Assembly: GCA_947625435.1 (NCBI GenBank)
Contig: CANQOI010000023.1
Coordinates: forward strand, 1 to 35,313
Direction of reading: 5' to 3'
DNA length: 35,313 bases
DNA from: an uncultured Clostridia bacterium
Lineage (GTDB): Bacteria; Bacillota; Clostridia; UBA1212; UBA1255
Part shown: piece by piece, positions 19,906 to 34,230 of the stretch
Layout: the number at the start of each line of letters is the position of its first letter
How positions within the stretch are numbered: the first letter of the stretch is position 1
Notes under the pieces: model-generated
Databases searched by the model: none
Seen by the model: the letters and a program-made list of their open reading frames with translations, nothing else
What the model was told of the DNA's origin: nothing
Made by a program: the position numbers and the translations under genes

Positions 19906-20004
19906 ACGCAGCTCAGGAACATCTCTGAAAAATTTTATGCACATATAACAGTGGCTCCGCATATCATTAGTATAGAACACGAGCATGAAGCGGGGTATAC
20001 TGTG

Positions 20005-20316
20005 ATGGCAAACATATTTGACAGGATCGAAAACAGGATAACAGGAGTCAGGATAGAACAGGGGATAGAGAAATTAAAATCTACCCCTGTTGAACAGCTT
20101 TCAAAAGAACTTGAAAAAGTAAACAGAGCCGAGCTCCTTAAAAAGATCAATGAGCTTGATACAAAGAAGATCAAGGACATGAAGATAGATCCCGAAGCGA
20201 TAAAGAAAAGGCTCACGCCCTCCGATATAGAAAAAATAAAAAAGCTGGCAGGGAAGGACGCAGATACGGTCATGAGGAAGCTGGATGAGCTCACAGCTAA
20301 AGAAAACAGACCATGA
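20005..20316 (+). CDS. small charged protein of unknown function
   Basis: Not recognised. From ATG 20005 (CGGGG nine bases upstream) the 103-residue product is soluble, very rich in Lys, Glu and Asp, and predicted mostly helical (LKKINELDTKKIKDMKIDPEAIKKRL). A GTG at 19951 in the same frame would add 18 residues but has no clear ribosome binding site. It has no Cys or hydrophobic segment. The stop overlaps the next gene by ATGA, so the two small proteins are likely made together. The 99-base gap after the capA-like gene shows no convincing sigma-A promoter. Confidence 0.65.
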   Translation: MANIFDRIENRITGVRIEQGIEKLKSTPVEQLSKELEKVNRAELLKKINELDTKKIKDMKIDPEAIKKRLTPSDIEKIKKLAGKDADTVMRKLDELTAKENRP

Positions 20317-20663
20317 ATGAGCTTAATGATAAAATCAAAGAGATCGGCAGCATGTTCGGGATAAGTGAACTGCCGGACAATATAGGAGATATCATTTCGT
20401 CTTTCCTTGGCGTCAGCAGTGAAAGTAAAAAAGAGGACGAAGGAGATATTGGTAGTACCAATTCAGATATTTCAGATATTGAAAAGATACTTCCGATCGT
20501 CAATAAATACTTTGAGATAAAAAGAAATTCACCGAACGACAGAAAAATAAAGCTGCTGTATGCCATCGAACCTTTCCTGAGCGATAAAAGAAAAGATAAA
20601 ATAGATATATGCATAAAATTCCTAACATTCACTCAGCTCGCGAAGGAATTTAAAAATATATAA
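20313..20663 (+). CDS. small protein of unknown function with C-terminal helical motif
   Basis: Not assigned. The 116-residue protein has an amphipathic N-terminal part (IGSMFGISELPDNIGDII), a Ser/Asp/Glu-rich middle, and a C-terminal segment DRKIKLLYAIEPFLSDKRK followed by KIDICIKFLTF. The pattern of LL.A..PFLS..R...ID.C looks like a real conserved helical pair rather than random sequence; I have the impression of similar small proteins in spore-forming Clostridia, but cannot confirm it. It overlaps the previous gene by 4 bp and precedes another small gene by 19 bp. Confidence 0.65.
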   Translation: MNELNDKIKEIGSMFGISELPDNIGDIISSFLGVSSESKKEDEGDIGSTNSDISDIEKILPIVNKYFEIKRNSPNDRKIKLLYAIEPFLSDKRKDKIDICIKFLTFTQLAKEFKNI

Positions 20664-20682
20664 TAAGGGATTATATAATAAA

Positions 20683-20961
20683 ATGAGACGAAGATCGTAC
20701 CGCATACATCAGAATTTTAATCTTGAGGAAGTGATTGTTTTTTCTCCGACAGGCTGCAGGTCATCGGAAAAAAATGCAAAAGAAAAAAATGAGGATGGAT
20801 CACCGGCTTTTTCAGCTTTTTCTTTAGACGATATAATACTTCCGGTACTGATAGGAATACTGATATATGAAAGGTACGATCTGAAAAAAAGCGGCGCTTC
20901 AAAAGAAGAACTTACAGATTACGATCATATGATCGCATCGCTGATATATATTTACATATGA
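20683..20961 (+). CDS. small protein with one hydrophobic segment, unknown function
   Basis: Not recognised. The 92-residue product starts with a basic stretch (MRRRSYRIHQNF), has a charged linker, then a hydrophobic stretch (DDIILPVLIGILIYERYD, about residues 49-66) and ends in SLIYIYI. It may be weakly membrane-associated. It starts at ATG 20683 after AAGGGA at a rather long distance. It is the last gene of the three-gene small-protein group and is followed 8 bases later by a strong inverted repeat. Confidence 0.55.
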   Translation: MRRRSYRIHQNFNLEEVIVFSPTGCRSSEKNAKEKNEDGSPAFSAFSLDDIILPVLIGILIYERYDLKKSGASKEELTDYDHMIASLIYIYI

Positions 20962-21124: not shown

Positions 21125-21937
21125 ATGTATGATATGCATGTTCATTCCGGATATTCTTCTGACTGCAGGCTTGATATGGAAAAGGCTGTGCTCTGCGCGA
21201 TACAGAAAGGACTGTCAGGCATTGCTTTTACCGATCATCTTGATATTGATTATACTGATCATGAAAATGAATTTCAGTATGACTTTAACGATTATTTCGG
21301 CAGAATAGATCTTCTTCGCCGTAAATATTCGACTGAGATCGATATACTGAGCGGTGTTGAGATCGGTGTCCAGCCTCATGTCATTGCCGAAACAAAGGCC
21401 CGTATCAAAGATTTTGATTTTGATTTTATCATTGGATCTACGCACCTCATCAAAAGACGCGATCCTTATTACGGTTCATATTTCAGCGACGGAGTTTCGA
21501 AGGTCGATGCCTACGGCGAGTATCTTGACGAGCTTTTCGGCAATCTGATGCTTTATTACAGTGATCTTTCAGATGACGATAAGCCTTTTTGTGCCATGGG
21601 TCATTTTGATTATATAGTCAGATATGCACATTTTGACGATTCGCGCTTTCTGTACTCGGACCACGCCGACAAGGTCGACGATATATTCAGATTTATCATT
21701 GAACGGGATATTGCCCTTGAGATAAACACATCCACATATTTGAGGCAGCCGCTTGACCTCAGGATGCTGACGCGTTATAAGGAGCTCGGCGGCCGCCTCA
21801 TTACACTCGGTTCTGACGCACATTCCGATGACAGACTCGGCGTGAATTTCAGAAAATATGCTGACTGCGTTAGAAGCTGCGGCTTCGACAGACTGTATTA
21901 TTATAAGGATATGACTCCCCTTCCCTATGATATATAA
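21125..21937 (+). CDS. hisK: PHP-family histidinol phosphatase
   Basis: The 270-residue PHP-domain protein has the metal-binding motifs in order: MHVHSGYSSD at the N-terminus, AFTDHLD, GVEIGVQP, GSTHLIKR, MGHFDYIVRYA and GSDAHSDDRLG. These match the HisJ/HisK type of histidinol-phosphatase, which makes histidinol from histidinol phosphate in histidine biosynthesis. No other his gene is in the window, so a related phosphatase role cannot be excluded. It has its own predicted promoter. Its 3' end overlaps the convergent permease gene by 13 bp. Confidence 0.88.
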   Translation: MYDMHVHSGYSSDCRLDMEKAVLCAIQKGLSGIAFTDHLDIDYTDHENEFQYDFNDYFGRIDLLRRKYSTEIDILSGVEIGVQPHVIAETKARIKDFDFDFIIGSTHLIKRRDPYYGSYFSDGVSKVDAYGEYLDELFGNLMLYYSDLSDDDKPFCAMGHFDYIVRYAHFDDSRFLYSDHADKVDDIFRFIIERDIALEINTSTYLRQPLDLRMLTRYKELGGRLITLGSDAHSDDRLGVNFRKYADCVRSCGFDRLYYYKDMTPLPYDI

Positions 21938-23057
21938 GTTGCTGCCATTTCCGCGCACGTCAGGATCATAAGGAAAGCGAAGTTCACGATCGTGAATTTT
22001 AAAATATACGAGAACGTTTTACCCGGGTTATGTTTTACATATTCTCTGAATGTGATCAGGCTTGCAAGAGACGCTATGAGAGTACCGACGCCTCCTATAT
22101 TGACACCCGGGAGCAGCGCCCGGTAATTGCCCGTAAACTGAGAGAGCAGTATGGCAGAGGGCACGTTGCTTATGAACTGGCACGACAGAATGCTGAATAA
22201 AAGTGTGTTCTTATTGAGTAAAAAAGAAAACAGTGACCTTACGCAATCGATCCTCGCCATATTTCCCGCAAAGATGAAAAAGAACACGAATGTCAGCAGA
22301 AGCCCGTAATCTACCATTTTAAGGGCCTTCCTGTCGGCAAATATGAGCACGGCGGGTATGATGATGAGGCCAATCCAGAAGGGTATCACTCTGAATACCA
22401 TTATGATAGCTATAACAAAAAGACTGAGGTATTGAGGTATAAAGCTGTCCTGCCGGGGTTCAATGTATATGATTCATCGGTAAAATGCAGTTCTTCATTT
22501 TTAACGAAAAATATGCAGCACAGTGTGATGAGTAATACCGATATCGCAAAAGGAAACCACATTATCTTAAAAAATTCAGCATTGCTTATATTAAATTTCG
22601 TATATAAGTACAGATTCTGAGGATTTCCGAACGGAGTGAGCATACCTCCCAGATTTGCCGCTATGTTCTGCATTATGAAAGTAAACGCCATATACCTGCC
22701 TTGTCCGGTCGTTGAGAGAACGAAATAACCCAGAGGCAGAAATGTGAGCAGAGCCATGTCATTGGCTATCAGCATAGAACCTATGAATGTTATGTAAACA
22801 AGAGCCAGAACGGCCTTCCTTGCCGTGCGGAACAGTTCGACTGTCTTATCTGCCAAAATGTAGAAAAAATTGATATTTTTAAGTGCACATACGACTGCGA
22901 GCACGCAAAACAAGCAAGAAAGTGTCTTATAATCAAAATATCCGATATATTTTTTGTCAACAGGTACGATGACAGTTGTCACCGATGCCGCAGCGAGCGC
23001 GACTAACATGACCATATTTCTTTTAAAAAATGGTCTGCATACTTCTATTATCCTCAT
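21925..23057 (-). pseudogene. SLC13/ArsB-type anion permease split by an 8-bp tandem duplication
   Basis: Two adjacent minus-strand frames encode one permease. The first 215 residues (from 23057) have several membrane segments and NLGGMLTPFGNPQN; the second part (to 21925) has VDYGLLLTFVFFFIFAGNMA, CQFISNVPSAILL and NIGGVGTLIASLASL. These are hallmarks of the SLC13/ArsB/NhaD superfamily (anion or ion/proton transport). The frame breaks in a tandem repeat, TGAGGTAT at 22425-22432 and again at 22433-22440. Removing one copy joins the halves in frame (GRTALY-LSLFVIAIIMVFRVIP) and gives a 374-residue protein. As sequenced, the product ends at the TAG at 22410-22412. The gene lies one base after the Ca2+-ATPase gene. 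Confidence 0.88.
22425..22440. repeat. 8-bp tandem duplication causing a frameshift
   Basis: TGAGGTAT is repeated twice without a gap. Eight extra bases shift the reading frame of the permease. Losing one copy restores a continuous hydrophobic helix. This is the signature of slipped-strand replication. Confidence 0.9.
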
Positions 23058-23058
23058 T

Positions 23059-25704
23059 TTAACGCTTCTTTACTCTTCTCTGTATAAATTTTATGATCTC
23101 AACAATGGGGATCACCGAAAACGCCAGCCCGAGAGCGGTCGCATATTCCTTAACACCCAGTCTCGTAAAATCGAACGCATTCGCGAGGAACGGTATCTCT
23201 ATTACGGAAGATGTAAGTAAGATGCTTATGACAGCGGCGGACCACAACAGCTTGTTCTGTCCTTTTACGGTAAAAATACTGCCTCTCTGACTTCTCATAT
23301 TGAAGCTGTGGAATATCTCGGCCATACTCATCGTGAGAAATGCCATCGTTATACCGTGATCGCTGCTCGCGTTCAGAATATTCCATGTTCCGTGCTCAAA
23401 ATGGTTTCCTATGAGGAAAGCCGTAACTGTGAGCGCCGAAACAAGTACTCCCTGATATAAGACATCAATGCCGAGTCCTCCTGCGAATATACCGTCTTTA
23501 GGATCGCGCGGGGCTCTTTTCATTATGTCCTTCTCGCCTTTTTCCACACCGAGAGCAAGCGCAGGCAGACAGTCGGTTATGAGATTTATCCACAAAAGGT
23601 GAACGGGCTTCAGTATCACGAAGCCGAGTACGCTTGACGCAAATACGCTCAGCACTTCACTCATGTTTGAACCGAGCAGGAACTGTATTGCTTTACGTAT
23701 GTTGTCATATATACGTCTTCCCTCGCCTACGGCGCCCACGATCGTGGCAAAATTATCGTCTGCGAGCACCATATCCGCCACGTTCTTAGTGACATCTGTT
23801 CCCGTTATGCCCATACCTATGCCTATATCGGCATTTTTAATGCTCGGCGCGTCATTGACTCCGTCGCCTGTCATGGCGGTTATATATCCGTTGCTGCGCC
23901 ATGCGTTTACGATACGTACCTTGTGCTCCGGCTGTACCCTCGCGTAAACTCCGAACTCCGTTATACGTCTGCTAAGCTCTTCATCGCTCATTTTGTTTAA
24001 TTCGGAACCGGTTATTGCCTGTGATGCATCATCTATTATTCCGAGCTGCTTTGCAATGGAGGCAGCCGTATCTCTGTGATCGCCGGTTATCATAACCGCA
24101 CGTATGCCGGCACTCTTGCATTCTTCTATTGCCGCTTTAACCTCAGGGCGTATAGGATCCATCATACCTGTGAGCCCTATGAATATGAGCTCATTTTCTG
24201 CGGTGTCGGAGTCGGGATCCTCGGGAAGCTCATCGTAAAGCCTCATAGAAGCCGACAGGACTCTCAGAGCCATGTCCGCCATTTTTTTGTTGGCTTCTGT
24301 CACGGCCTCTCTGTATTCATCCGTCATGGCACGTATCTCACCGCTGTCATAATAAGCCGTGCAGCGGCTCAGTATCACATCGGGAGCGCCCTTTGTATAC
24401 TGAATGATCTTACCGCCGTGTGAATGGAAAGTTGACATCATTTTACGCATGCTGTCAAACGGTATCTCGGACACTCTGGGATATTCCGCTTTTAATGCGG
24501 GCTTCGGGACACCTGCGGCGGCGGCATAATTCACGAGAGCACATTCAGTAGGCTCTCCGGTAGATTCATTCTTATCGGGGTCGAATTCGGCATCGCTGCA
24601 GAGAGCCATAGCGCTTGCGAGCAGCTTTTCGTCCGAGCCGAAATGTTCAACCACAGTCATTTTATTCTGTGTGAGCGTTCCCGTCTTGTCACTGCATATT
24701 ATCTGTGCGCAGCCTAATGTCTCGACTGCCGTGAGCTTGCGTATTATGGCGTTCCTCTTCGACATTTTAGTAACGCCTATCGAAAGTACGATCGTGACGA
24801 CGGTAGCAAGTCCCTCGGGTATGGCGGCCACTGCAAGACTGACGGCGACCATGAATGAGTCCATAATCGGTTCGAAGTGAAGATCACCCGATTTGATCAC
24901 GTTGAAAGCAAATATAAAAACGCATATTCCGAGAACTACCCACGTAAGGGTCTTGCTCAGCTGTGAGAGCTTTATCTGAAGAGGCGTTTTACCCTCCTTA
25001 GTCATCGTAAGGGCATTTGCGATCTTACCCATTTCGGTCGACATACCGGTGTCCGTTATAACGGCCTTTCCGCGGCCGTATACGACGGTACTGCCCATGT
25101 ATATCATATTTTTCCTGTCGCCGAGAGGTACGTCCTGCGCTCCATCTTCGATCCGGTCCGGATATTTATTTACGGGAACGCTCTCACCCGTAAGAGCCGA
25201 CTCTTCTATCTTCAGACTGGCGGATTCTGTTATCCTGCCGTCAGCCGGCACGGCGTCTCCCGCTTCGAGTAAAACGACGTCTCCCGGTACAAGATCCTCA
25301 CTCTTTATAACTGTGAGCACGCCGCCGCGGAGTACCTTGCTCGTGGCTGCCGACATTTTCTGAAGCGCGTCTATAGCTGCCTCGGCCTTGCTCTCCTGTA
25401 CGACGCCGAGTACCGCGTTTATAAGAACGACGATCATTATGATTATAACATCGGCGTATCCTTCGCCCTCGCCCCCGGCTGCTGCCGTAACAGCTGAAAT
25501 GACAGCCGCGGCTATCAATATTATTATCATAGGATCTGCCAGCTGTTTGAGGAAACGTTTGAAGACGGATGTCTTCTTACCCTCCTCCAACTTATTCCTG
25601 CCGTAAACGGCCGCCCGCTTCTGCGATTCCGATCCGGAAATGCCGTCATATGAGCTGTTTAATTCTTTCAAAACATCATCTGTATTTTCAAGATAATATT
25701 TCAT
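23059..25704 (-). CDS. P-type calcium-transporting ATPase
   Basis: The 881-residue cation P-type ATPase is complete: N-terminal actuator region with LTGES (171-175), the AIPEGL membrane motif (295-300), the phosphorylation site CSDKTGTLT with Asp339, a KGAPD nucleotide-binding motif, and TGDGVNDAPSIKNADIG in the P domain. It also has the cation ATPase N- and C-terminal domains. The sequence best fits the bacterial SERCA/PMCA-like group (P2 type), which exports Ca2+ from the cytoplasm. It sits between tyrS and the SLC13-like permease on the same strand, with a one-base gap to the permease. Confidence 0.93.
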   Translation of the reverse strand: MKYYLENTDDVLKELNSSYDGISGSESQKRAAVYGRNKLEEGKKTSVFKRFLKQLADPMIIILIAAAVISAVTAAAGGEGEGYADVIIIMIVVLINAVLGVVQESKAEAAIDALQKMSAATSKVLRGGVLTVIKSEDLVPGDVVLLEAGDAVPADGRITESASLKIEESALTGESVPVNKYPDRIEDGAQDVPLGDRKNMIYMGSTVVYGRGKAVITDTGMSTEMGKIANALTMTKEGKTPLQIKLSQLSKTLTWVVLGICVFIFAFNVIKSGDLHFEPIMDSFMVAVSLAVAAIPEGLATVVTIVLSIGVTKMSKRNAIIRKLTAVETLGCAQIICSDKTGTLTQNKMTVVEHFGSDEKLLASAMALCSDAEFDPDKNESTGEPTECALVNYAAAAGVPKPALKAEYPRVSEIPFDSMRKMMSTFHSHGGKIIQYTKGAPDVILSRCTAYYDSGEIRAMTDEYREAVTEANKKMADMALRVLSASMRLYDELPEDPDSDTAENELIFIGLTGMMDPIRPEVKAAIEECKSAGIRAVMITGDHRDTAASIAKQLGIIDDASQAITGSELNKMSDEELSRRITEFGVYARVQPEHKVRIVNAWRSNGYITAMTGDGVNDAPSIKNADIGIGMGITGTDVTKNVADMVLADDNFATIVGAVGEGRRIYDNIRKAIQFLLGSNMSEVLSVFASSVLGFVILKPVHLLWINLITDCLPALALGVEKGEKDIMKRAPRDPKDGIFAGGLGIDVLYQGVLVSALTVTAFLIGNHFEHGTWNILNASSDHGITMAFLTMSMAEIFHSFNMRSQRGSIFTVKGQNKLLWSAAVISILLTSSVIEIPFLANAFDFTRLGVKEYATALGLAFSVIPIVEIIKFIQRRVKKR

Positions 25705-25745: not shown

Positions 25746-26919
25746 TTAAAGTGTGAACCTGTGAAATACTTTTTTTCCTTTTCTGAGTATCACGCCTTCG
25801 GCAAGATCGGCTTCCGAAACGGATGCATCAGCAGCCTCGATCCTGACATCGTTTATGAATACGCCGCCCTGCTGTATGAGCCTTCTCCCCTCGCCTTTTG
25901 ACGGTATGAGCTTCGCCGCCAGCATCATGTCGATAACGGATATCAGACGATCCGGAGCCGCCGAACAGTGACCTTGAAACCTCAGCGGCCTTGTCGGCTT
26001 CTTCCTTTCCGTGTACTATCTTAGTGACCTCATATGCGAGACGTTCCTTTGCCTGATTTATCTTACTGTCCTTCCACTGCTCCATTTCACGAATTTCTTC
26101 TATCGGTACAAATGTGAGAAGCTTCAGGCATTTTATGACATCGGGATCGGCTACGTTCCTCAGATACTGGTAAAGCTCATACGGAGGCGTTTTATCCTTA
26201 TTGAGCCATACCGCGCCTTTGACTGTCTTGCCCATTTTCACGCCGTCGCTGGTAGTGAGCAGTGAAAATGTGACTCCGTATACCTCTTTTGCTTCCTTCC
26301 GCCTTACGAGCTCCACTCCTCCTATTATATTCGACCACTGATCGTCGCCGCCGAATTCCATTATGCACCCGTAATCCTTGTAGAGCCTGTAAAAATCATA
26401 GCTCTGCATCAGCATATAGTTGAATTCTATAAAATTGAGGCCGCGCTCGAGACGCTGCCTGAAGCACTCGGCGGTCAGCATCCTGTTTACGGAAAAGTGG
26501 ACGCCTATATCACGCAAAAAGTCCACATAATTCAGATTTAAAAGCCAGTCGCCGTTATTTACGAGAAGCGCTTTGCCGTCTGAAAAATCTATGAAACGGG
26601 AAAGCTGTTCTTTAAGTCCTGCGGCATTGCGGGCGATGTCGTCGTCCGAAAGCATTTTACGCATATCCGTCTTACCGGAAGGATCTCCTATTTTGGCCGT
26701 GCCTCCCCCTACGAGAGCGATAGGAATGTGTCCGGCTCTCTGCATGTGCGCCATCACCATTATCTGAACAAAATGCCCTATATGCAGGCTGTCGGCCGTG
26801 GGATCGAAGCCTATATAAAAAGGCACTTTAGTATTATCGAGGATCTCCCTGACCTTCTCTTCATTTGTACACTGCGCTATTATACCGCGCTCTACAAGTG
26901 TTTCGTAAATATTTGACAT
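25746..26919 (-). pseudogene. tyrS: tyrosyl-tRNA synthetase with frameshift before the S4 domain
   Basis: The first frame (from 26919) encodes a normal TyrS catalytic and anticodon-binding region: [37 protein letters not shown] and KMGKT are present. After LFGGSGSSD, near 25940, the correct sequence continues in another frame: [27 protein letters not shown] to KKVFHRFTL, the S4 RNA-binding domain ending at 25746. In the first frame translation runs on out of frame to 25828. Most TyrS proteins have about 15-20 more residues between LFGG and the S4 part, so a deletion of about 50 bases rather than one indel may be the cause. Start: ATG after AGGGAGG. A sequencing or assembly error is possible. 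Confidence 0.85.
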
Positions 26920-26952
26920 TTAAAATTTCCTCCCTTTATGCATGGAAAACCG

Positions 26953-27867
26953 TTATCCCGTTATCTTTTCACCGTTGGAAGTCACGTCGGCATTCTCGCC
27001 TATGATGCATTCGCCCGTATATACAAAGTCCTTGTCTTCCGTTTTTATGTCCACCGTTCCGCCGGTTATCTCGATATTCCCGTCTGACTTGACGGCATTA
27101 TTCTTTGTATCGATGTTTACCGTGCCGCCTGATATGCTGACACGCGTTATCGCAGATATCGCCTCATCGGAGGCTGTGAGCGTGAGCGTGCCGCCGGAAA
27201 TCTCAAGATATCCGAGAGATGCATCCTTATCGTTAGTGGACTTTACGGCGTCATTCCCGGCGTTTACCGTTATATTTCCTCCCTTTATGCTGAGATAGTC
27301 TTTGCCCTTTATTCCGTGGTTTACGGCTGTTATATTTATATTTCCGCTCTCTATCGTAACGGAGTCGCGTCCTGCCACGGCGTCATTGTAATTTGCATTT
27401 ACGTTCAGAGTACCTTCCCCGCTCACAGTCATATCGGCCTTTGTGAATAATGCGGCGTCCGGTTCGTTCGCACCCGGTTCAAGACTGTATGAGGCGCCGT
27501 CCGATATTGTGTTCGTACTTCCCTCGGGAAGCTGTATATACACATGCCCCGCGCTTATGACGTATATAGGAGCAGAATGATCGCACTTTATGTCCGCATT
27601 ATTCAGAACGAGCGTTACATTGCCCGTAGAATTGACTATTATCTGACCGTTATCGAGGCTGCCCGTTATCTCATATGTTCCGGCACCCGTTATAACGGCA
27701 GAAGAACCGTCCGCCGTGACACCGGACGGCACCGAAACGGATGTGCCCTCAAGCTTTATAACGGCAGTGCCCTCATTTTCATTTACGGATTTATCCGGAC
27801 TGCCGCAGCCGGGCGCGGCCGTTATGATCAAAGCGCATACAAAAAACAATATAAAATACTTTTTCAT
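26953..27867 (-). CDS. Cthe_2159-like carbohydrate-binding beta-helix lipoprotein
   Basis: From ATG 27867 the 304-residue protein starts with a lipoprotein signal (KKYFILFFVCALIITAAPGC). It continues with repeated short beta-strand units (GAGTYEITGSLDNGQIIV, SGNINITAVNHGIKG, SGGTLTLTASDEAI, TGGTVDIKTEDKDF), as in the Cthe_2159 family (DUF4353). Cthe_2159 is a polygalacturonate-binding beta-helix protein. The binding target here is unknown. AAAGGA lies eight bases before ATG 27867. The frame is open further upstream into rarA, but those starts have worse spacing. Confidence 0.85.
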   Translation of the reverse strand: MKKYFILFFVCALIITAAPGCGSPDKSVNENEGTAVIKLEGTSVSVPSGVTADGSSAVITGAGTYEITGSLDNGQIIVNSTGNVTLVLNNADIKCDHSAPIYVISAGHVYIQLPEGSTNTISDGASYSLEPGANEPDAALFTKADMTVSGEGTLNVNANYNDAVAGRDSVTIESGNINITAVNHGIKGKDYLSIKGGNITVNAGNDAVKSTNDKDASLGYLEISGGTLTLTASDEAISAITRVSISGGTVNIDTKNNAVKSDGNIEITGGTVDIKTEDKDFVYTGECIIGENADVTSNGEKITG

Positions 27868-27880
27868 AAGCTGCATCCTT

Positions 27881-29188
27881 TCATTCATTTTTATCTTCAT
27901 TCCTGTTTTCCTGTTCTCTTTTCCATGACATATATTCGATGATCTTATTTTCATACCCGTTCCCATAGGGACGGTAATATACGGTTCCCAGCATTTCATC
28001 CGGGAGGAACTGCTGTCTTACGACATTGCCCGGATAATCGTGCGCGTACTTATATCCTTCGGCATACCCCAGCTTTTCCATTCCCTCCGCCGCGGCGTTC
28101 CTCAGGTGAAATGGCACGCTGCCGGTGTTCTTTGTACGTACGTCGTTAAGAGCGCTTTCCACGGCCATATATGACGCGTTGGATTTAGGACTCACTGCTA
28201 CCGTCACGGCAGCCTGTGCGAGTAAAATGCGCGCCTCAGGCATACCTATCATACGCACGGCAGCTGCTGCGGCTACTGCGACAGTTAGTGCCGTGGGATT
28301 TGCGGTGCCCACATCTTCGGACGCACATATAACGATCCTTCTGGCCAGAAAATTTATATCTTCTCCCCCTTCGAGCGCTCTCGCAAGATAGAAGACAGCC
28401 GCATCCGGGTCGCTTCCGCGCATGGATTTTATAAATGCGCTTATGTTGTCATAGTGTTCTTCTCCCGATTTATCGAAGCGCACGGTCTTCTTCTGAACAC
28501 ACTCTGAGATTATGTCGGTCGTGATCCTGAGCACGTCGGAATCGGCCGTCTGCGTCGTAAGTACAGCGAGCTCAAGGGAATTGAGGGCAACGCGCGCATC
28601 TCCGTTTGAGACGGCTGCGATAAAATCAAGAGCTCTGTCGTCTATTTCAATATTCATCTTACCGTAGCCGCGTTCCTCATCCTTCAATGCTCTTCTCACT
28701 ATATTTTTGATGTTATCCTCCGTGAGAGGATAGAGCTGAAATACGGTGGAACGTGATATCAGAGCTTTGTTCACTTCAAAGAAAGGATTCTCGGTAGTGG
28801 CTCCTATCAGCACTATAGTGCCGTCCTCCACATACGGGAGGAGGGCATCCTGCTGAGCTTTGTTGAACCTGTGTATCTCGTCTATAAAAAGAAGCGTTCT
28901 TCCGGCAGGATTCATAAAATAGTTCTGTGTGTCGGAGACTATTTTTTTTATGTCGGCGATACCCGATGAAACGGCGTTTATCTTAACAAAATTGATCTTA
29001 GTTACGTTTGCTATGAGGCGGGCGAGCGACGTTTTACCGGTGCCCGGAGGGCCGAAAAATATTATAGAGGAAAGCCTGTCCGCTTTTATCATGCGGTAAA
29101 GAAGCTTTCCCTCTGCTAATATATGCTCCTGCCCTTCATATTCTTCAAGGCAGGTCGGACTCATTCTGTAAGCCAACGGCTCTTTCAC
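27881..29188 (-). CDS. rarA: replication-associated recombination ATPase RarA/MgsA
   Basis: The 435-residue AAA+ protein has the start [21 protein letters not shown] typical of RarA, Walker A GPPGTGKT (46-53), Walker B LLFIDE (99-104) and the C-terminal MgsA domain ([28 protein letters not shown]). RarA acts at stalled replication forks together with SSB and RecA. The GTG start at 29188 is preferred because the conserved N-terminus begins there; an ATG eight codons later would remove it. A weak AAGG lies just upstream. It is part of a long minus-strand group of genes. Confidence 0.95.
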
Positions 29189-33237: not shown

Positions 33238-34230
33238 GTGGCTACTTATGAATACGGGGTCCTTCCCTATTACGCAGATGATTTTCTTGTATATCTTGAA
33301 TCGATATCGGGCAAGTCCCAAAATACAGTAGGCGAGTATTTTTACGATCTGCTCATGTTCTTCCGCTTTATGAAGGTACGGAACGGCTCTGCGTCCCATG
33401 ATACCGATTTTAACGATATAAATGTCTCCGATTACGGCATTGACAAGTTGGCGGAAATAAGGCTCTCCGATCTGTATGCATTCCTGAATTATATGAACAG
33501 TGAGAGAAAGGATAAGCCGGCGACACGCGCGAGAAAGGTCGCCTGTCTGCGTTCTTTTTTTAAATATATATGGGGCAAGGCAAAGCTCATACCCGAAAAT
33601 CCGGCGGCAGAGCTTGAATCTCCGAAGCTTACGAAAAGACTGCCGCGATATCTTGAGCTTGATGAGAGCATAGCGCTCCTGGAAGCGATAGACGGTGATC
33701 AAAAGGAACGCGATTACTGCATGATCACTCTGTTCCTTAACTGCGGCATGCGTCTTTCTGAGCTCGTGGGGATAAACCTGAGTGATATAAGGGCCGACAC
33801 TCTCAGGGTGCTGGGTAAAGGAAGCAAGGAGAGAACGATATATCTTAACGACGCATGCTTAGACGCGCTCAGGCGATATATCGCCGTGAGGCCCGATTAT
33901 GAAGAAGCAAGCGGAGCAAAGCCGTTGTTCCTGAGCAAAAGAAAAAAGCGCATAAGCCCGAAGACCGTGCAGTACACGGTAAAGAAATATCTGCGTGCGG
34001 CGGCTCTCGATACAACGAAATATTCAACTCACAAGCTGCGCCACACAGCAGCTACTCTCATGTATACTATGGGTGATGTGGACATACGTTCCCTGCAGGA
34101 GATACTCGGCCACGAAAGCGTTGCGACTACTGAGATATATACACACGTGAACAATGCACGACTTAAGGACGCCGTCAACAAAAATCCTCTGGCAGGATAT
34201 AAAAAGCAGAGTGACGATCTGTCAGTTTGA
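33238..34230 (+). CDS. tyrosine recombinase of the XerC/XerD type
   Basis: The 330-residue protein has an N-terminal SAM-like core-binding domain (about 10-115) and a C-terminal catalytic domain with all expected residues: Arg172 in GMRLSEL, Lys194 or Lys197 in GKGSKER, His265 and Arg268 in HKLRH, His292 in LGHES and Tyr301 in IYTHV. It resembles XerC/D-type recombinases that resolve chromosome dimers, but relatives also move genomic islands. The start is GTG at 33238, 12 bases after CGGAG. No att site, phage gene or integron-like array is next to it. It is convergent with the LCP-like gene and overlaps it by 9 bp. Confidence 0.9.
   Translation: MATYEYGVLPYYADDFLVYLESISGKSQNTVGEYFYDLLMFFRFMKVRNGSASHDTDFNDINVSDYGIDKLAEIRLSDLYAFLNYMNSERKDKPATRARKVACLRSFFKYIWGKAKLIPENPAAELESPKLTKRLPRYLELDESIALLEAIDGDQKERDYCMITLFLNCGMRLSELVGINLSDIRADTLRVLGKGSKERTIYLNDACLDALRRYIAVRPDYEEASGAKPLFLSKRKKRISPKTVQYTVKKYLRAAALDTTKYSTHKLRHTAATLMYTMGDVDIRSLQEILGHESVATTEIYTHVNNARLKDAVNKNPLAGYKKQSDDLSV

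Follow-up and report, generated by a model that had tools for sequence, protein, structure and literature searches.

Within the 35,313-nucleotide stretch of contig CANQOI010000023.1 of an uncultured Clostridia bacterium that was analysed here (hereafter the window), the minus strand carries a permease gene that is read in two frames. The N-terminal part (22410..23057) starts with the ATG at 23057 and continues for 215 residues to a TAG at 22412-22410, running off-frame past an exact 8-bp tandem duplication at 22425-22440, and residues 12-189 of its product match Pfam CitMHS (E 8.8e-22); the C-terminal part (21925..22440, minus strand) lies in a different frame that is open from at least 22440 to 21925. 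An intact P-type cation ATPase gene (23059..25704, minus strand) precedes the permease, a single nucleotide separating its stop from the permease ATG; given this spacing, the two genes probably share one transcript. Next to the ATPase lies the tyrosyl-tRNA synthetase (TyrRS) gene (25746..26919, minus strand), which is also frame-broken, near 25942-25952. An Rfam scan of the window returned no match.

The duplication at 22425-22440 consists of two copies of TGAGGTAT (ATACCTCA on the coding strand) and coincides with the frame break of the permease, as the sequence-only reading of this DNA had claimed. The resulting plus-strand sequence TGAGGTATTGAGGTAT was found by sequence search to be unique in the genome, its single occurrence being the one in the window; in shuffled sequence no occurrence was expected. 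Since the match at period 8 spans eight bases and no more, the GAC and AAA flanks extending nothing, microhomology at the junction does not go beyond the repeat itself. Neither the 28-base one-copy junction nor the 31-base two-copy junction had a match in viral contigs, and a search of plasmids for similar DNA found none. Deletion of one repeat copy gives a stop-free permease of 374 residues, the very length that had been predicted from the sequence.

Among 97 relatives searched with the N-terminal half, the matches that align well are single open frames of ~370-400 residues, and scanning reference genomes yielded 80 further loci, up to ~75% identical. The homolog set comprises 99 loci, a few of which represent the same genome twice and the closest of which have ~75% identity or less. 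All 99 are single open frames, of ~355-391 residues, and the one-copy reading aligns with them without gaps over residues 198-222, retains 148 of the 150 columns conserved at >=95% in the 99-locus alignment and stands at a normal distance from the family in both halves (rank 25 and 22 of 99). Because of the gap-free alignment, the conserved columns and the unsplit state of the homologs, the lesion is a single insertion of 8 bp and the gene is otherwise undamaged, the duplication being the cause of the break, in keeping with the sequence-only reading. By the same alignment, the permease is to be read as frame-broken by this single insertion without later decay, which argues against the decaying gene that had been envisaged as one option, no second lesion being present in the permease; nor does the family naturally terminate at the break, a circumstance under which the gene would not be broken at all. 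The proposed comparison of the locus with relatives covered homologs of ~75% identity or less, an insertion at the duplication site being absent in 99/99 (the codons were displayed for 21).

As to the nature of the permease, the N-terminal part scores 78.1 bits with Pfam PF03600 (CitMHS), well above the gathering cut-off of 31.9, and the same model is matched by all 16 aligned homologs. The fold comparison was made on the intact homolog L043, not on the broken protein; the model of this homolog (pLDDT 81.5, pTM 0.80) has as its best Foldseek matches VcINDY, Pho90 and ArsB, with E-values from 5.5e-07 to 1.8e-05. The designation "SLC13-like" is supported, the window gene sharing with the ion transporter superfamily a sequence score above the Pfam cut-off and the predicted fold of its intact homolog; it differs in being ~370 residues long and frame-broken and in falling far under the cut-offs that NCBIfam sets for DASS (SLC13) and for NhaD. 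TIGR00785 (DASS/SLC13) gives 25.6 bits for the window protein and 27.5 for L043, missing the curated cut-off of 198.6, whereas the NhaD models NF038006 and TIGR00775 give 22.6 and 26.1 bits against cut-offs of 80 and 577, respectively. Run against PDB sequences, the family profile yielded chance-level matches only.

In the L043 model the break corresponds to residue 201-202 and falls within the predicted membrane helix 195-212, the continuity of which across the break had been surmised from the sequence and which is the first helix past the loop dividing the two halves of the fold. Because the second half of the fold is missing, the 215-residue product would be expected to be inactive. Could the two parts nevertheless work, either as separate chains, the second restarting at ATG 22401, or through ribosomal frameshifting? 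The break is near the boundary of the two fold halves, and the first in-frame ATG of the C-terminal part lies at 22401, 8 nt past the premature stop, where residue 217 of the permease (22399-22401) is M instead of the I found in 98% of homologs. However, it is the helix that is cut by the break instead of the preceding loop, ATG 22401 has no Shine-Dalgarno-like sequence upstream, a canonical slippery heptamer is lacking (there is merely CTTTTTG, with a run of five T) and none of the 99 homologs is split. The methionine at residue 217, and with it the position of the ATG, is probably due to chance, and a working split or frameshifted gene can hardly be credited.

Short tandem repeats of this size belong to the common background of the genome, exact 8-bp pairs occurring 23 times in 726 kb (1.1 per 35 kb), compared with 18 for a same-genus genome (697 kb) and 15 for class relatives (771 kb) (0.7–0.9 per 35 kb); what rises above chance is the coincidence of one such pair with the permease frame break, since from the background rate we calculate a probability of ~3 in 10,000 for an 8-bp repeat within ~10 bases of the break. 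Genome-wide slippage or genome-wide artefacts were rejected as an explanation, the repeat rate being merely mildly above that of the relatives. The window itself contains three exact 8-bp tandem repeats, at 22425, 26950 and 27900, the last two lying where the coding sequences of a Cthe_2159-type carbohydrate-binding protein (26950-26965) and of RarA/MgsA (27900-27915), respectively, reach their C-terminal end. All three were considered as possible assembly scars, and for these two the idea was dismissed, the gene ends of relatives agreeing with the two-copy readings: RarA of relatives ends in ...WKKQQENKNEKE and the Cthe_2159 protein in ...NGEKITST, which suggests that both repeats are natural. 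In the genome sample, whose readable stretches add up to ~0.76 Mb (contig C2 reads N over 72 kb), no other gene was found to be convincingly broken by a tandem repeat, and repeats near L141:18281 and L210:15302, inspected by eye, were discarded as gene breaks in that they are situated upstream of gene starts. Tandem repetition of another type is seen at L140:474-650 (contig C16 of the genome under study, G000), where TTTTCTG-type units accompany longer repeats in which the peptide KWLFSVKYARVRKALREIFCKK is encoded again and again.

These data bear directly on the suggestion that the number of 8-bp units alternates between one and two in the population and thereby switches the permease on or off. 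Slippage can remove one copy from a two-copy direct repeat, so that reversion is possible in principle, and the locus has in common with simple-sequence-repeat phase variation a tandem repeat within a reading frame, its unit length being indivisible by three. Phase variation of this type calls for a hypermutable tract: the loci concerned mutate 100-10,000 times faster than background, and short tracts close to the lower limit are indistinguishable from chance appearance (PMC11868660). Unlike such loci, the permease has just two units, which do not form a hypermutable tract and belong to a class of pairs found about once per 35 kb, and the relatives have no tract, the site being free of tract and insertion in 99 homologs; furthermore, no comparable break was found in the ~0.76 Mb sampled from this genome, and microhomology at the junction is confined to the repeat. 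An off state of the permease that reverts naturally and is kept as a low-frequency switch is therefore very unlikely, though less so than a split or frameshifted gene that still works.

An exact direct repeat of 8 bp that no additional microhomology prolongs is also the remnant expected of an excised insertion sequence, the repeat being its target-site duplication, or of an element dropped from the assembly between the two target copies. IS256, ISL3, IS1595 and IS6 elements generate target duplications of ~8 bp, and multi-copy elements may be missing from draft genomes. On the other hand, transposases of these four families, the ones searched for, are absent from the assembly, and such an origin has only a slight probability. 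As a separate observation, a tyrosine recombinase of the phage integrase family, which may belong to an element or else resemble XerD, is encoded at 33238-34230 on the plus strand, adjoining a LytR-CpsA-Psr gene.

The weighing is altered by the second frame break, which the sequence-only reading had not mentioned and which is located in the sole TyrRS gene of the genome (a weak third TyrRS match on contig C34 is probably TrpRS), 3.5 kb from the permease break on the same contig. Here a deletion has removed ~47-50 bp from the segment that separates the S4 domain from the anticodon-binding part, with a change of frame at this point, the S4-domain part staying open in the other frame to its natural end. 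TyrRS is intact in each of the four remaining same-genus genomes and in most other relatives. The gene order rarA, Cthe_2159-type protein, tyrS (25828-29188) is kept in four same-genus genomes, in three of which the permease is on a different contig. Since prokaryotic-type TyrRS without the S4-like domain has a lower tRNA affinity (PMC6310243), the lesion, if real, would be severely harmful. The TyrRS break is likely an assembly error, or else a very odd mutation. In a tblastn survey of ~210 kb of aligned coding DNA of the genome, the permease and TyrRS breaks were the only genuine ones; the same-genus genome G002 had none in 277 kb, and a third apparent break, at L129:13807, was traced to antisense read-through of two adjacent genes.

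The occurrence of two fresh lesions side by side, one of them in a hardly expendable gene, indicates that the contig is locally unreliable, and raises the question of whether the duplication is itself an artefact of assembly or consensus, arising in a poorly covered or strain-mixed stretch, while the real permease is intact. Contig pieces could have been joined with an 8-bp overlap left unmerged in the permease and with ~50 bp lost at another join in TyrRS. This explanation is favored by the two unrelated breaks in genes that are both otherwise undamaged, by the absence of microhomology at the duplication and by the nature of the genome, a draft assembly of 86 contigs. Against it stand the fact that exact 8-bp tandem duplications are seldom invented by short-read assemblers, for which k-mers spanning the duplication junction must exist in the reads, the lack of any other tandem-repeat break in ~0.76 Mb of the genome and the natural appearance of the other two 8-bp repeats of the window. 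Frameshifted genes in assemblies are often low-coverage artefacts, according to a study that did not include metagenome-assembled genomes (PMC11017572). The spurious pseudogenes of draft assemblies resemble the present case in that a clean gene is broken and a second, essential gene is broken nearby, but such errors do not usually take the shape of an exact 8-bp duplication. All in all, local assembly trouble has a substantial probability, nearly as high as that of a real recent null mutation.

Such a null mutation in the permease is nonetheless the reading that we prefer, and we would give it close to an even chance. It is favored because an exact 8-bp duplication, unusual as an assembly error, is natural as a mutation, exact short tandem duplication being a common type of spontaneous mutation and atypical as a short-read base error. 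The duplication would then be present in real cells, and a single recent event would have duplicated eight bases within a dispensable permease gene of the ion transporter superfamily; owing to the +8 shift, ribosomes would terminate after 215 residues, in the first helix of the second transporter half, and the product, devoid of that half, would be inactive, making the gene a fresh null allele. Such a loss is tolerable because the permease is single-copy here, no second copy being found in the genome, and absent from the same-genus genome G003 (94% complete), in which no permease match was obtained; with the N-terminal half as query, 47 of 97 relatives gave a match. From this distribution the family is judged dispensable. 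Moreover, the frame is lost with respect to the homologs through one lesion with no further decay, as befits a recent null allele, and the gene shares with spontaneous tandem-duplication null alleles one exact extra short unit, the loss of frame and the possibility of one-step reversal. It differs from them in its junction without microhomology.

Two considerations weigh against a real mutation and, through the TyrRS break and the absent microhomology, in favor of an artefact. A fresh lesion in the adjacent essential TyrRS gene is biologically hard to believe, and the junction lacks the microhomology that replication slippage usually employs; a junction of exactly this type would be left by blunt joining, by filled-in staggered ends, by excision of an insertion sequence with 8-bp target duplication or by pasted contig ends. 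The permease break thus has the appearance of a fresh mutation of an ordinary type or of an error in assembly, without any sign of a designed switch.

In itself, a single-lesion break in a transporter missing from half of the searched relatives has little significance. The lesson concerns data quality: because the sole TyrRS gene on this contig is also frame-broken, claims of pseudogenes or of phase variation made from this stretch need read support first. Elsewhere in the window, three small adjacent open frames of 121, 116 and 92 aa, without Pfam match, occupy 19951-20961 on the plus strand, and an exact 9-bp tandem repeat lies within them, at 20462.
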